Of a DNA stretch of 64,000 nt, positions 2,200 to 8,559 are shown one piece after another. Position numbers and translations under genes: made by a program. The number at the start of each line of letters is the position of its first letter. The first letter of the stretch is position 1. Location of the stretch: positions 1-64,000 of the forward strand of contig JAHJKP010000039.1 in assembly GCA_018821985.1 (NCBI GenBank), written 5' to 3'. Under the pieces are notes generated by a model. It ran no database searches and was not told where the DNA came from. It saw nothing but the letters and a program-made list of their open reading frames with translations. Origin of the DNA: Pseudomonadota bacterium. GTDB taxonomy: Bacteria; Desulfobacterota; Desulfobulbia; Desulfobulbales; Desulfocapsaceae.

Positions 2200-3705
2200 T
2201 TATTTGTACGAAGTATTCTCGCTCATCCCCTTACGGGTCTCCATGTTCAAGATCCCGTTTGCCACTGCCTGCTTATTCCATTCCTGGAGCAGGGTGGCCT
2301 TGAATTGCTCTTTTTCTGCTACCAGTTTAACCATGTCCACGCCAGCCAGAGCCTGAGCACTTTCTTTGGTGGAAAAATCGGGGGCGATATAGTCAACCAC
2401 GCCATGTTTGGCCAGAACGCTTACCAGTTTCAACCTGGCGGTCTGGGCCTGCTCATTGGCTACAGATAAGAGCCGCAAAGTCTCTTCCGGGGCATGATAG
2501 AAGGCGCCGTGGCTAGCAATGGAATAATCCCATTTCCACTGGCCGTGCCTGATATCCTGCTGAATGTCTTTCATCTCTTCTTCCGTTGCCCCTGATTCCC
2601 AGGCCTTCTTGGCCTCCAGATGGGCCTTGGCCAGATTATCCATGGTAATCTTCACCAGCTGTTCTTTCCGCTCCAGCTTTCTTTTGACAACGGCCTTGAA
2701 CTCCTCTTCCGTCTCTTGGTGGCAATTCAGACAGGTTGTGGCGATATTATCCAGGGGGCTGGTGATATGGTGATCAGAATATTTGACCGCCCCTTCCTGC
2801 ACATAAGGCATATGACAATCGGCACAGGCCACACCTCTCTGGGCATGAATACCTGTTTTAAACATCTCGTAGCCGGGATGCTGGGCCTTGAGCATCGGAG
2901 TTTTACTCATGGGATGAGTCCAGTCACTGAAGTTCGCATCATCATAATATTTTTCCATGCCTTCGGCAGTCAAGCCATTGGCCCAAGGAAAGGTGACAAC
3001 ACCAGCGACCTTCTTGGTCCCGGTCGCATCAGTCCACTCCGTCTTCTTAAAATAATATTCGGCGTGACACTGAGCGCAAACCAAGGTCCGCATGTCTTGA
3101 AAGGTAATATTTTCCAGCTTGACCCCACTGGCCTCCAGCCCTTTTTTCAAATAGGGCCTGGTAATCATAAGATTTCCGGTCTTGCTATCATGGCAGTCAG
3201 CACAGCCAATGGGATTAACGATCTCCTGCCCGTATTTGGCCCACTTGCCGGTGAAATACTCAAGCTCACCGACCTTTTCAATCATACGCGGAACATCCGG
3301 CGACTTGCAGCTCCAGCATGCCGTGGGCATAGGGCCTGTCACCGCGTCAATGGGGGCTCCTGTTCTCAAGGTATTGGTAATATCCTGGATCGTATAAAAA
3401 TGACCCCGCGGTTTATTATAATCCTTGGAAAAGCCATAGCCGGCCCACAGGACGGCGAGCTGCGGATTCTGCTTAAGCTGATCATCAATCTTGTCACTCT
3501 CTTTGGTTCTTTTCCAGGAATCATACTCCCGTGGATAGTACTTCGCCCACTCCTCATTCCTGCTCTCCACCCCTTTTTCCTTGACCACTGGGCTGGTATT
3601 GATCTGTTTTCTCTCTTCGGTTTTGCCGTTAATTGAATTACCCAGCAACAGCATTGAAGCTACCGCAACCGACGAACCAGCCAATAATAATGTGTATTTA
3701 TTCAC
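2200..3705 (-). CDS. nrfA: Cytochrome c nitrite reductase catalytic subunit NrfA
   Basis: NrfA is the periplasmic pentahaem enzyme that reduces nitrite to ammonium with six electrons. The 501-residue protein has an N-terminal signal/anchor (LLLAGSSVAVASMLLLG). It carries the hallmark lysine-ligated active-site haem CWSCK at 130-134. Four ordinary CxxCH sites follow: CADCH 168, CAQCH 210, CADCH 294 and CLNCH 325. Length and order match the NrfA family. It lies 17 bases downstream of nrfH and ends at a strong terminator. With NapA encoded divergently it would complete nitrate ammonification; in sulfate reducers NrfA also protects against nitrite inhibition of sulfite reduction. Confidence 0.97.
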   Translation of the reverse strand: MNKYTLLLAGSSVAVASMLLLGNSINGKTEERKQINTSPVVKEKGVESRNEEWAKYYPREYDSWKRTKESDKIDDQLKQNPQLAVLWAGYGFSKDYNKPRGHFYTIQDITNTLRTGAPIDAVTGPMPTACWSCKSPDVPRMIEKVGELEYFTGKWAKYGQEIVNPIGCADCHDSKTGNLMITRPYLKKGLEASGVKLENITFQDMRTLVCAQCHAEYYFKKTEWTDATGTKKVAGVVTFPWANGLTAEGMEKYYDDANFSDWTHPMSKTPMLKAQHPGYEMFKTGIHAQRGVACADCHMPYVQEGAVKYSDHHITSPLDNIATTCLNCHQETEEEFKAVVKRKLERKEQLVKITMDNLAKAHLEAKKAWESGATEEEMKDIQQDIRHGQWKWDYSIASHGAFYHAPEETLRLLSVANEQAQTARLKLVSVLAKHGVVDYIAPDFSTKESAQALAGVDMVKLVAEKEQFKATLLQEWNKQAVANGILNMETRKGMSENTSYK

Positions 3706-3722
3706 AATCCCCTCCCTTATTG

Positions 3723-4253
3723 TTAATTCAACTCTCTCACACCCAAATTATATGGTGTTGCGGTTTGACCTCTCACCCTGCCATGGGGCACGTTGCGATG
3801 ACATTCCCAGCACTTCCTGTCCACCTGCATATTGCCCGTAAAATCATGATAACGGTCGGCATTCGCCCTGATCGTCCCTGTAATCACGGCGTGACAGGAG
3901 ATACAGTTGGCCTGTACTCGTTTTGCCGCATCGTCACTGATCTGGATGCGATGGGCAAAGGTATTCATAGTAAAGGCGCTGGAGTGCTTCCAACCATCCC
4001 GCATCTTGGCCAGATATTTATCAATGACATTGGTAGTGGGAAGATGGCACTGAATACAGGTGACGTTCCGGGCATGAGAACTGTGCTGCCATGTGGCATA
4101 CGACGTATTCATGACATGACAGTTGATACAGGCTTTTGGATCCTTAGACAGATATGACAAGGCCCTTGACGCATTCACCAGATAGATGAACAGTACAATC
4201 GCGACGACGAAAACCGCTATGGAACTGTATTTTAATAGTTTACCTGTTTTCAT
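3723..4253 (-). CDS. nrfH: Cytochrome c nitrite reductase small subunit NrfH (NapC/NirT family quinol dehydrogenase)
   Basis: NrfH anchors NrfA to the membrane and passes menaquinol electrons to it. The 176-residue protein has one N-terminal transmembrane helix (about residues 8-28). Four CxxCH haem sites follow at 42, 66, 117 and 148. The first is CINCHVM, with the methionine two residues past the histidine that ligates haem 1 in NrfH. It is the first gene of nrfHA, expressed away from napM. Because no napC exists in the nap operon, NrfH is the only NapC-family quinol dehydrogenase visible in the window. Confidence 0.95.
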   Translation of the reverse strand: MKTGKLLKYSSIAVFVVAIVLFIYLVNASRALSYLSKDPKACINCHVMNTSYATWQHSSHARNVTCIQCHLPTTNVIDKYLAKMRDGWKHSSAFTMNTFAHRIQISDDAAKRVQANCISCHAVITGTIRANADRYHDFTGNMQVDRKCWECHRNVPHGRVRGQTATPYNLGVRELN

Positions 4254-5103: not shown

Positions 5104-5481
5104 ATGCGAAAGTGTTCCGGCTTTACCTTGCTGCTTGCTTCCCTCTGCCTGGCCTTGATCTGTGCCTGCGCACAGGATTCCGGCAGCAGCCCTTCCGAAT
5201 CCATCAAACATCCAGAAATCACGGAGCAGGAAAAATTACTCCCCTGCTCTGAATGTCATCAGCAGGCAACGCCTGAGGTCTACGAACAGTGGTTTAATTC
5301 ATTACACGGCATTGGCATGGTGAAATGTTATCAATGCCACGGCACCTATGAAAATTTCAAGGTGGAACCGGCCACCTCAGTTTGTGCAACATGCCATATG
5401 GACATGATTGAGAAATGTCCCAAGGATCAAAAATGCTGGGCCTGTCACACACCACATTCATTCAAGCGGGCAAACAAATAA
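5104..5481 (+). CDS. napM: Tetrahaem cytochrome c of the nap operon (NapM)
   Basis: This is a 125-residue exported cytochrome. The N-terminus is a signal peptide (residues 1-23) with a likely cut after ACA; an atypical lipobox at Cys22 is an alternative. Four haem sites follow: CSECH 48, CYQCH 75, CATCH 94 and CWACH 111. Size, haem count and position directly before napA match NapM of the Desulfovibrio napC-M-A-D-G-H operon, where it is thought to carry electrons to NapA in place of NapB. A strong AGGAGG ribosome site lies 7 bases before the start. It is the first gene of the operon behind the candidate sigma-54 promoter. Confidence 0.85.
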   Translation: MRKCSGFTLLLASLCLALICACAQDSGSSPSESIKHPEITEQEKLLPCSECHQQATPEVYEQWFNSLHGIGMVKCYQCHGTYENFKVEPATSVCATCHMDMIEKCPKDQKCWACHTPHSFKRANK

Positions 5482-5491
5482 GGAGGGGGAG

Positions 5492-7879
5492 ATGGTACAG
5501 ACACGACGTGATTTTCTGAAACGCACCGCAGCGCTCAGCGCTGCATCATATTTAGGAATACTCCTGCCATTCAAGGATGTGGGCAATGCACTGGCCGCTG
5601 ATGAGACGACGTGGCACCGCGGAAGTTGCAGGCTCTGCGGAACCGGCTGCCGGCTTGAGCTGGGAGTCAAGAGTGGTCTCCCTGTCGCCCTGCGCGGAGT
5701 GCCGCAATCCCGGACCAACATGGGCTATTTGTGCATGAAGGGCATGCACTTCTGGAAGCTGATGAACCATGCAGATCGCCTGACAACACCCCTTTATCGT
5801 GCAAAGAAATCTGACAAATTTAAAAAAATTTCATGGGATGAGGCCATGAACATTGCCGCCGACAAATTTGCGAGTGCGGTCAAAGAGCATGGCAATAACT
5901 CCGTTGCCTATTATGGCTCCGGCCAAGCACTCACCGAAGAGACTTACCTCTTTCAGAAGATTTTCCGCGGCGGGCTGCAGACCAACAATGTGGAGGGCAA
6001 TCCACGACTGTGCATGGCCAGTGCCGTTGGCGGTTACATGACTTCCTTTGGCGCCGATGAGCCCATTGGCGGCTATGCCGATATTGAAAAGGCTGACTGC
6101 TTTTTTATTATCGGCTCCAACATGGCCGAGGCCCATCCGGTTATCTTCCGCCGCGTCATGCGAAGAAAGCTAGACAATCCCAAGGTGACGGTTATCAACG
6201 CCGACCCCCGGATCTCACTCACCTCGCGGATCGCCGACATCCATCTCCAATTCAATCCGGGTACCGATCTCGCCCTGCTTAATGCCCTAGCCTACGTCAT
6301 CATCGACGAGAAGCTGCACAACGAACAATTTATCAATGATTACGTAACGTTCAAGAAAAGTAAAGGGGACACCATTGATTTTGAGGAGTACAAAAAATCC
6401 CTGGTTGATTACACTCCGGAAAAAGCAGCCACCATCATGGGCGGCAAGGTTACTGCCGATCAGATCCGGGAAGTGGCCCGCAAGTTTGCGACCTCCAAGG
6501 GTACTCTCTCGATGTGGACCATGGGGCTTAATCAGCGGAAGCAAGGGGTCTGGGCCAACAATCTTGTCCACAACCTGCACATCCTCACCGGCCAGCTCCT
6601 CAAAGAAGGCGCAGACTCTCTTTCACTCACCGGTCAGCCCAATGCTTGTGGCGGGGTACGTGAGGGCGGCGGGCTCTGCCATATCCTGCCCGGCCATCGC
6701 CCGGTGGAAAAAGAAGCCATGAGAAACCAGGTGGAAGAGGCCTGGGGTATTCCCAAAGGACGGATTCCGGCTGAACCCGGTCTCCATACCATGGCCATGT
6801 TCTCAGCCGTGAACGAGGGCAAGATCAAGGCCATGTGGATCAACTGCACCAGCCCGGCACAGAGTTTGCCCAACTGCAACAAGTACAACAAAGGGCTGGC
6901 CAAGGACGATACCTTCGTTGTCTGCACCGATATCTTCCCCACCCTGACCACGGAACTTGCGGCCAATCTGGTGCTGCCGACTGCCTTTCACTTTGAGAAG
7001 ACCGGGGTCTATGGCTGCACCGAAAGACGTTCACAGATCACCAGAAAGGCCATCAATCCACCCAAGGGGGCCAAGCCTGAGGTTGAGATTGTCCGCGACT
7101 GGGCCACCCTGCTGGCCAAGAAGCTAAATGACCCGGTGATTGACCAGTGTATCAAACCCTTTATCGGGCTGGAACCGGAGTATGCCCTGCCCAAGGCCAT
7201 CTGGGAAGAGTACAGCCAGAAGCTGACCAAGGGCCGTGACAGTGACCTCTCCGGCGCCCCCTATGAAGTTCTGGAAGGGATGTATGACGGTGTTCAGTGG
7301 CCGGCGCCAACGGTCGAATACGCCAAGACCGGAGGTACGGTGAAAAAATTTGTCCGGGGCATGGACCCCCTGGCCGAAAAGCTTAAAACGGACGACAAAC
7401 CCTACCAGTTCTATGGCGCTGGACACCCAGACCATAAGCTCTGGGTCTGGATGCGTCCTCAGGCCAACCCGGAAGAAATGCCGGATGCCGACTATCCCTT
7501 CTACCTCTCCACAGGAAGGATCATCGATCACTGGCATACCATGAGCATGACCGGACGGATCCCTGAGCTGCTGCGGGCCAACCCCTACTCATACATCGAG
7601 ATCAACCCCAAAGATGCCACCCGCCTAGGGATCAAACCCGGCGACATGATTGAGATAACGTCCAGGCGAGGCACAAATATCATGCCGGCCAAGGTGTATG
7701 AAGGCCCCATCGAGGGGATGGTCTTTGCCTACTGGCACGATCAGCATCCCGACCGCATGATCAACAAGGTGACCATGGACGCCATTGATCCTGGCTCAAA
7801 GGAACCGGAATTCAAGATCTGCGCCTGCAAGATCAAAAAGGTTTCCGGACCCCAGGCCTTGAAACCGTATGTTGTTTAG
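5492..7879 (+). CDS. napA: Periplasmic nitrate reductase catalytic subunit NapA
   Basis: NapA reduces nitrate to nitrite at a molybdenum bis-MGD centre with one [4Fe-4S] cluster. The 795-residue protein begins with a twin-arginine signal (RRDFLK, residues 5-10). The cluster motif is Cys46-x2-Cys49-x3-Cys53-x27-Cys81. The conserved lysine linking cluster and cofactor is Lys83, and the molybdenum ligand is Cys174 in NPRLCMASA. The C-terminal MopB-binding domain is complete. The start at ATG 5492 follows AGGAGGGGG and places RR at the correct distance; an in-frame ATG at 5408 lies inside napM and is rejected. Ten bases separate it from napM, but 380 bases separate it from napD. Confidence 0.95.
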   Translation: MVQTRRDFLKRTAALSAASYLGILLPFKDVGNALAADETTWHRGSCRLCGTGCRLELGVKSGLPVALRGVPQSRTNMGYLCMKGMHFWKLMNHADRLTTPLYRAKKSDKFKKISWDEAMNIAADKFASAVKEHGNNSVAYYGSGQALTEETYLFQKIFRGGLQTNNVEGNPRLCMASAVGGYMTSFGADEPIGGYADIEKADCFFIIGSNMAEAHPVIFRRVMRRKLDNPKVTVINADPRISLTSRIADIHLQFNPGTDLALLNALAYVIIDEKLHNEQFINDYVTFKKSKGDTIDFEEYKKSLVDYTPEKAATIMGGKVTADQIREVARKFATSKGTLSMWTMGLNQRKQGVWANNLVHNLHILTGQLLKEGADSLSLTGQPNACGGVREGGGLCHILPGHRPVEKEAMRNQVEEAWGIPKGRIPAEPGLHTMAMFSAVNEGKIKAMWINCTSPAQSLPNCNKYNKGLAKDDTFVVCTDIFPTLTTELAANLVLPTAFHFEKTGVYGCTERRSQITRKAINPPKGAKPEVEIVRDWATLLAKKLNDPVIDQCIKPFIGLEPEYALPKAIWEEYSQKLTKGRDSDLSGAPYEVLEGMYDGVQWPAPTVEYAKTGGTVKKFVRGMDPLAEKLKTDDKPYQFYGAGHPDHKLWVWMRPQANPEEMPDADYPFYLSTGRIIDHWHTMSMTGRIPELLRANPYSYIEINPKDATRLGIKPGDMIEITSRRGTNIMPAKVYEGPIEGMVFAYWHDQHPDRMINKVTMDAIDPGSKEPEFKICACKIKKVSGPQALKPYVV

Positions 7880-7897
7880 GTGCCGTTGCTCAACGGG

Positions 7898-8000
7898 CAA
7901 GGTCTTTTTCTTGCTCGCAGAGCTTACGGCAGCTTATGCCACTACACGAAAACAGCTAATCTCTTCCGGCTGTTTTCGTGAGGGGCGTCTTGCCGAATAC
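7898..8000 (+). repeat. Structured tandem element, copy 1
   Basis: The copy begins CAAGGTCTTTTTCTTGC and ends GAATAC. Its main stem is CACGAAAACAGC (7945-7956) paired perfectly with GCTGTTTTCGTG (7969-7980) around a 12-base loop. A smaller hairpin GGCA-GCTTA-TGCC lies at 7928-7940, and GCAAG/CTTGC can pair at the 5' end. About three quarters of its bases match copy 2. It could be an RNA control element, an mRNA-stability structure, or a mobile hairpin repeat. Confidence 0.75.
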
Positions 8001-8018
8001 AAAAAAACAAGACAGAAA

Positions 8019-8120
8019 CAAGGTCTTTTTCTTGCTTGCTATGTTTACGGCAACTTATGTCGCTTCAAAGAAACAGCCAATCTTTCCCGCTGTTTCTTTG
8101 AGCGGGGTCTGGCAGATAAC
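8019..8120 (+). repeat. Structured tandem element, copy 2
   Basis: This copy has the same start as copy 1 and the same order of hairpins. Its main stem is CAAAGAAACAGC (8066-8077) with GCTGTTTCTTTG (8089-8100), also perfect over 12 bp. Relative to copy 1, stem pairs 3, 4 and 5 change from C-G, G-C, A-T to A-T, A-T, G-C, three double substitutions that keep pairing. The CGGCA-ACTTA-TGTCG hairpin is also kept through a G-U pair. Confidence 0.75.
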
Positions 8121-8205
8121 ATAAGGAACCGTTCAGGCCATGCAGTTGGTCATGTTATTTATTTACAACGGATTGACAAACAAGAAACAGAAAATTTCAT
8201 CCTCA

Positions 8206-8259: not shown

Positions 8260-8559
8260 ATGGTTATTGCCGGTTTTGTTGTTCAGTGCCAACCCCAATC
8301 ACAACAGGATACCGTTGTTGCCCTCGAAGCACTGGGGCAGGTGGAGGTTTTTGGCGCTGATGAGAAGGGAAATATCGTCACTGTGGTGGATACCGACTCT
8401 TCAGCTGACCTGGAAAAGATTGTCAAAAAAATGGAGAGTCTCGAACAGGTAATGACCGTAGGTCTCACCTATTTGAACATGGAGGATGAGGCAGAGAAGA
8501 TCGCAAGTGGTGAGCTTTCTCCAGACCCCTTTCCCCGCAAGCATCGCCCGGAAAATTAA
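8260..8559 (+). CDS. napD: NapD, NapA maturation chaperone
   Basis: NapD binds the twin-arginine signal of NapA and holds it back from export until the cofactor is inserted. This 99-residue protein has the family start (MVIAGFVVQC), the ferredoxin-like fold pattern, and the ending ...VMTVGLTYLNMEDEA. The start at ATG 8260 follows ACAGGTGG. A longer frame reaching back to 8140 covers the hairpin region and is rejected. It sits between the structured gap and napG. Confidence 0.85.
   Translation: MVIAGFVVQCQPQSQQDTVVALEALGQVEVFGADEKGNIVTVVDTDSSADLEKIVKKMESLEQVMTVGLTYLNMEDEAEKIASGELSPDPFPRKHRPEN

Follow-up and report, generated by a model that had tools for sequence, protein, structure and literature searches.

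A dispersed two-hairpin repeat at the napA stop codon of a Desulfocapsaceae bacterium, very probably a non-autonomous mobile palindromic element

The closest described systems to the element reported here are the GTAG REPs and BIMEs. In the account of Di Nocera et al. 2013 (PMC3733652), GTAG REPs often supply the TAG stop codon of flanking ORFs, have unidirectional or convergent genes on either side in most cases and show complementary changes in their stems. They are recognized by a GTAG tetranucleotide (or a close variant) ahead of a single palindrome of ~20-50 nt, by dispersed, mostly extragenic copies in high number and by the gene of a REP-associated tyrosine transposase (RAYT) beside the repeats. 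The text cited also describes TIRYT genes, whose flanking repeats have the consensus GGGGWSAS, and CGTC REPs, which, like the repeat reported here, are palindromic and lack an associated transposase gene but differ from it in tag, size and the possession of a single hairpin (PMC3733652). At the 3' ends of Borrelia lipoprotein genes, free-standing IS605 stem-loops likewise stand just past stop codons and are kept with compensatory changes; as the cited text describes them, they have a known parent IS605, whereas no parent element was found for our repeat (PMC2775950). IS200/IS605 elements would fit the repeat in having a hairpin near each end and in inserting beside a short fixed sequence, but the repeat has no internal transposase, and IS200-like copies of the same genus have ends unrelated to its own.

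The window, which is the whole stretch of 64,000 nucleotides that was analyzed (assembly GCA_018821985.1, contig JAHJKP010000039.1, positions 1 to 64,000), contains a napA-like gene at 5486-7879 on the plus strand, as judged from the ORF list, its translation and NCBIfam/Pfam. The first gene past the repeat block is napD (8260-8559, plus strand), which exceeded the Pfam cut-off (PF03927, 65.4 bits versus 28); NapA, NapG and NapH gave best or near-best matches, yet these fell under the NCBIfam curated cut-offs. Divergent from the nap operon, positions 2200-4253 (minus strand) contain nrfA (ammonia-forming nitrite reductase), which scored over its NCBIfam cut-off, followed by a small multihaem cytochrome gene. 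Directly ahead of napA, positions 5104-5481 encode a small CxxCH-rich protein that matched neither Pfam nor NCBIfam at E 1e-5. As the preliminary description noted, the operon is otherwise tightly packed: the gap from the napA stop to the napD ATG at 8260 is 380 nt, compared with 13 nt for the following gap, after which the next genes overlap.

Two tandem copies of ~103 nt, each with three short hairpins, had been proposed in this gap. We recovered the two direct copies with a period of 121 (7898-7968 and 8019-8089, 79% identity over 71 nt), the perfect stem in each copy (12 bp in copy A and 13 bp in copy B) and the three adjacent stem pairs that are altered on both sides between the copies. 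The frame starting at 7898 proved to be too small, as it lacked hairpin 1's left arm; the unit in fact opens at 7875 and takes in the napA stop. Unit A (7875-8002, plus strand) is full length and opens with TTTAG, within which lies the napA stop codon TAG (7877-7879), and it scored 123.1 bits over positions 1-128 of covariance model R1, a model that includes copy A and leaves out copy B. The minimum free energy fold from 7875 revealed two long hairpins in place of three short ones. In particular, the CAAG..CTTG hairpin is the tip of hairpin 1 (SL1, 7878-7934), hairpin 2 (SL2, 7938-7986) contains the perfect 12-bp stem (7945-7956/7969-7980), and what had been read as a GGCA hairpin is where these two long hairpins join. 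In unit B (8007-8122, plus strand; R1 77.9 bits, inverted repeat and alignment), the left arm of hairpin 1 is degraded and hairpin 2 is intact, with its 13-bp stem at 8065-8077/8089-8101. None of 200 dinucleotide-preserving shuffles folded with an energy as low as that of 7890-8000 (z -6.15) or of 8010-8125 (z -3.00). Additionally, local alignment revealed a broken third unit at 8129-8174 (plus strand), which is the 3' half of a related 105-bp form described below; its score was 57, compared with 39 for the best shuffled control (n=300) and at most 35 for random stretches of the window. With units A and B and this remnant, nearly all of the napA-napD gap as far as 8174 is therefore repeat. Tandem Repeats Finder at its default score reported no array at these copies because they are too diverged, and the reading as a strict tandem-repeat array was dropped.

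We found that the same element is scattered through the genome. The napA-napD stretch matched 13 other places in its own genome (E <= 1.1e-4), and the covariance model gave at least 26 matches there (E <= 1e-4); scoring covered 37 candidates in each genome, so that such copy numbers are lower bounds. Thirteen copies of this genome, copy A among them, align from TTTAG to GGCAGATAAC (alignment A1), and TTAG (columns 2-5) is identical in all 13 rows. Matches were present in 17/17 genomes of the genus, from at least 3 to at least 47 in each, and the right end of the unit is not sharp within this genus. Across the 93 genomes of the family, R1 matched 29, namely the 17 of the genus itself and 12 with weak matches. 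An exact pattern yielded 62 stretches in named genomes, titled Desulfobulbaceae, Desulfocapsaceae, Desulfocapsa, Desulfoarculaceae or plain Deltaproteobacteria, with the one exception of a Holophagaceae MAG. The copy in this MAG (L111), which belongs to another phylum, scored only 37.5 bits and would reflect transfer or a mixed bin. Viral contigs contained no copies, phages gave no match to the 105-bp unit and plasmids gave no match to either form of the repeat; delivery by phage or plasmid was rejected on these results.

The beginning of the unit coincides with gene ends far more often than other occurrences of the same pentamer. By simple ORF calling, in loci chosen by the presence of the element, a long ORF stops at exactly the TAG within TTTAG in 25 of the 62 named-genome copies, 25 copies are intergenic and 12 lie inside ORFs, compared with 4 stop, 90 intergenic, 152 inside and 9 edge among the other TTTAG pentamers of the same loci (n=255). 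Of 30 copies from other genera, the left TAG is a stop in four, and in two a convergent gene uses the right-end TTA, read in reverse, as its TAA stop. Upon comparison of empty with filled sites, the gene ends were retained: TAA in the empty state corresponds to TAG in the filled one for L163/L006 and at one other site, TGA corresponds to TAG at two sites, and at nap and acsB the codon is TAG in both states. The glyS gene ends in TAA with the element and in TGA or TAA without it. One further pair (L147 6185 and L137) lies in an apparent coding frame, which reads TTT TTA GGT with the element and TTT CTG GAA without it. The TTA is kept on the filled side, whereas at 12 empty sites 14/36 positions differ (hand tally), compared with ~10-20% in most flanks; the element may therefore bring its TTA as cargo rather than target it.

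Relatives have identical copies at differing sites. Together with the unrelated surroundings of the copies, their sharp ends in relatives, the sites found empty and the stop codons that were reused, all of which were observed, this makes it very probable that the napA-napD block is built of two tandem units and the remnant of a third, all belonging to a non-autonomous, mobile palindromic repeat that is dispersed in the genome. A mobile hairpin repeat was among the roles first suggested, and it is the one that the scattered copies in the genome and genus, the unrelated neighbor genes and the empty nap site bear out. The preliminary description had also named copies scattered along with a transposase as something that would refute its reading; the scatter was found and the transposase was not.

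A different account is that the element now serves as an intercistronic RNA, in which the hairpin pair would shield the upstream mRNA at its 3' end or attenuate read-through and so set the ratio between the products of the upstream and downstream genes, as reported for REPs. A stabilizer that might set the NapA:NapDGH ratio had been among the roles first suggested. The nap site itself speaks against this reading. Close napA genes (91-100% identical) occur in six genomes, and the element is present at the napA stop in G000, G003, G009 and G012 (three units). It is missing from G015, whose empty site makes the napA-napD gap of the window 303 bp longer by comparison, and unit number varies from one to three among the relatives that have the element; in G016 the contig ends within napA. 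Regulation specific to nap was rejected in view of the scattered genome copies, the matches in 17/17 genus genomes and the G015 nap operon without the element. Separately, frames of NapA-like molybdoenzymes (42-43% identical), each with a pair of TGA codons in frame, were seen at G000:C6:99809-102133 and in L161-L164; such frames, present in G000, G004, G008 and G011, are possibly selenocysteine formate dehydrogenases.

The acsB-acsC site argues for an intercistronic use. The acsB gene is present in 15/17 genus genomes, and the element stands directly at its stop in 13 (GTT TAG) and not in two (ATG TAG). All 13 elements fold as two hairpins (-34.5 to -81.5 kcal/mol). With a structure taken from one alignment row, 91.9% of cells pair and 15/45 pairs are altered on both sides; the both-side changes occupy 52 cells, compared with a shuffled mean of 17.2 and with 1-7 when the structure is slid, although the slid control favors the structure because it was derived from that single row. 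Tested against 79 other copies, 11 of the 13 acsB copies were nearest to an orthologue, and since these sites are common to many species, many copies are old. Thus, the acsB copies are old and have been kept paired, by selection or by template switching, which, as described in the cited text, can produce multibase compensatory changes without selection (PMC8794818). The same source makes the earlier statement that selection for structure is the simplest reading of the nap copies too strong, as mobile palindromes and template switching also yield such changes (PMC8794818). Of the 53 copies with both neighbors called, 25 have same-strand neighbors on both sides, which agrees with an intercistronic role; the adjoining genes are unrelated to one another, however, and the 12/62 copies inside ORFs by simple calling do not fit. 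As the explanation of the element, an exapted RNA is unlikely. The retention and compensatory changes at acsB-acsC nevertheless lend indirect support to some use of such hairpins in operons, and given this pattern the element may have a secondary intercistronic role.

The 12 weak family matches represent a related form, mostly 105-106 bp long, with clear ends (TTAG...CGGCTTA) and thus TTA at both ends. The hairpin-1 pattern of this form was found in 53/257 genomes of the order, in 10/69 genera and five families, with a patchy and often multicopy distribution, and the backwards-pattern control gave 0 in each genome. T1, A3 and G4 are invariant across the 27 rows of alignment A3. In G059, one hairpin-1 sequence is common to 15/19 places among the matches listed, and at least 11 units are identical over 105 bp. 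In G108, which belongs to another family, eight fetched loci contain one identical 106-bp unit; two of these share flanks, leaving at most seven sites (exact grouping gave seven, and the end finder missed L324). Units of G001, a member of the window's genus, have 6/106 mismatches from some G108 units, a likeness that possibly arose by transfer between families or from mixed MAG bins. Integron attC sites have RYYYAAC and GTTRRRY as paired core sites and are accompanied by an integron integrase. No such core sites were apparent by eye in the consensus of the related-form units.

The loops of hairpins 1 and 2 of this form may pair with each other, as 5/10 pairs are changed on both sides (26 distinct rows) and in mutual information one such column pair ranks second among all pairs. 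This helix, which is absent from the form in the window's genus, is supported by the paired changes and the mutual information but not proven, because unpaired columns also score high and many single units fail to exceed their shuffles (the longest match was equalled by at least 100/500 shuffles in 17/27 units); this support is also inflated by subfamily structure. In the SL2 loop of two copies, L156 (the G003 nap site) and L006, we observed a second hairpin repeat, CACCACCCCC...CTCCTTAAAAAAGGAGGGGG (GGAGGGG), as if one repeat had landed inside another.

The TTA at both ends could also mark a MITE, with a DDE transposase as its mobilizer and a duplicated target of 3 bp, TTA (or TA). In two sets of 40 and 20 among the matching places, with an imperfect end finder, TTA flanks both ends of 24/40 and 16/20 copies, and the comparison of L171 with L245 fits a single TTA before insertion and two after. 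The left side carries TTA in 37/40 and 19/20 of these places, and the right is less constant. The two trinucleotides disagree in some near-identical copies, such as L304 (TTA/TTT). As the ends, moreover, do not form clear terminal inverted repeats, we regard a MITE as an unlikely source of the mobile palindromic repeat.

We also compared the repeat with a classical, BIME-like REP mobilized by a RAYT. The two share dispersed palindromes with a tag right before the hairpin, a TAG given to the upstream ORF, complementary stem changes, tandem groups and a location mostly between unidirectional or convergent genes, as far as GTAG REPs and BIMEs are described in the texts cited (PMC3733652; TnpA-REP work, PMC8266576). 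The high copy number agrees as well, with 50/62 copies at a stop or intergenic, and RAYT-type genes exist in the genus. In contrast to GTAG REPs as described there, the tag is TTAG, the unit contains two differing hairpins in a fixed length of 105 nt or more (105-128 nt), TTA is also found at the right end and no RAYT stood nearby among the loci checked. Y1_Tnp genes occupy 79 places in the genus and another 38 in eight genomes that represent two other genera. Copies were present in the flanks of 0/32 and 0/30 examined loci, respectively; over these 62 loci (of 117 places), 19 with flanks cut by contig ends, no model match was better than E 0.38. In one genome, G012, just two Y1_Tnp matches were present, both weak and partial, yet at least 37 model matches. 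The RAYT-like gene L031 of the window's own genome is flanked by an inverted pair containing GGGGTCAG, which is the kind of repeat described for TIRYT genes (PMC3733652). On this evidence, a RAYT-driven REP is quite unlikely. The loci of IS200-like copies in the genus likewise held no R1 match. A search for a parent element at hairpin-1 places without a right end recovered solo or decayed copies (such as L282 of G059 and L308 of G072) rather than a transposon; both of these are a solo hairpin 1 whose right half is absent, and L282 has the exact sequence of the amplified subfamily.

The suggestion of a tandem ligand-sensing RNA that controls nap, to which stable, tandem structured copies within an operon lend some color, is scarcely credible and was rejected: in Rfam the window stretch had no match at gathering score and none credible up to E 1 (only a chance-level mir-4879, 18 bits versus a gathering score of 100), six related loci had no match either, the neighboring genes are unrelated, one site holds one to three units, and copies occur even in eight genus genomes without a NapA match at E <= 1e-100.

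The repeat looks, and probably behaves, like a REP, and we place it in a new family of REP-like, non-autonomous palindromic repeats, apart from REPs proper because its tag, size and lack of linkage to a RAYT differ. At nap, it would have inserted at the napA stop codon, with the unit moved in trans by an enzyme, most likely one of the HUH/Y1 type acting on folded single-stranded DNA, that would recognize the hairpins and join the unit 3' of TTA. We give this single-stranded step slightly less than an even chance; it is suggested by the anatomy of the unit, in which each end has a hairpin, terminal inverted repeats are not clear and the left trinucleotide is fixed. A gene would survive insertion after the TA of its stop because the unit opens with G, which restores an in-frame TAG. 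Landing at the terminal TTA of an existing unit would give rise to tandem arrays, and units chained via a single TTA were seen (L162, L137). Any effect on the nap transcript would be a side effect or a function gained afterwards. A broader scheme can be drawn, in which an order-wide family of mobile two-hairpin units with a kissing-loop fold is moved by an unrecognized enzyme, rebuilds stops as TAG and TAA on opposite strands and leaves descendants exapted as intercistronic RNA hairpins, as at acsB-acsC; taken as a whole, this scheme is very doubtful.

In the open-access literature, we found no earlier description of this repeat family of sulfur-cycling bacteria. The element between napA and napD is real and well structured but is not a nap regulator, and its use of stop codons is unusual. 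Its case indicates that a signal of paired changes in an operon gap can stem from a dispersed palindromic repeat. How it moves can be tested, given the recent identical copies, the empty sites and the way in which stop codons are reused. Finally, acsB-acsC is a clean setting in which to ask at what point a mobile hairpin turns into a useful component of an operon, or whether template switching alone keeps it paired.
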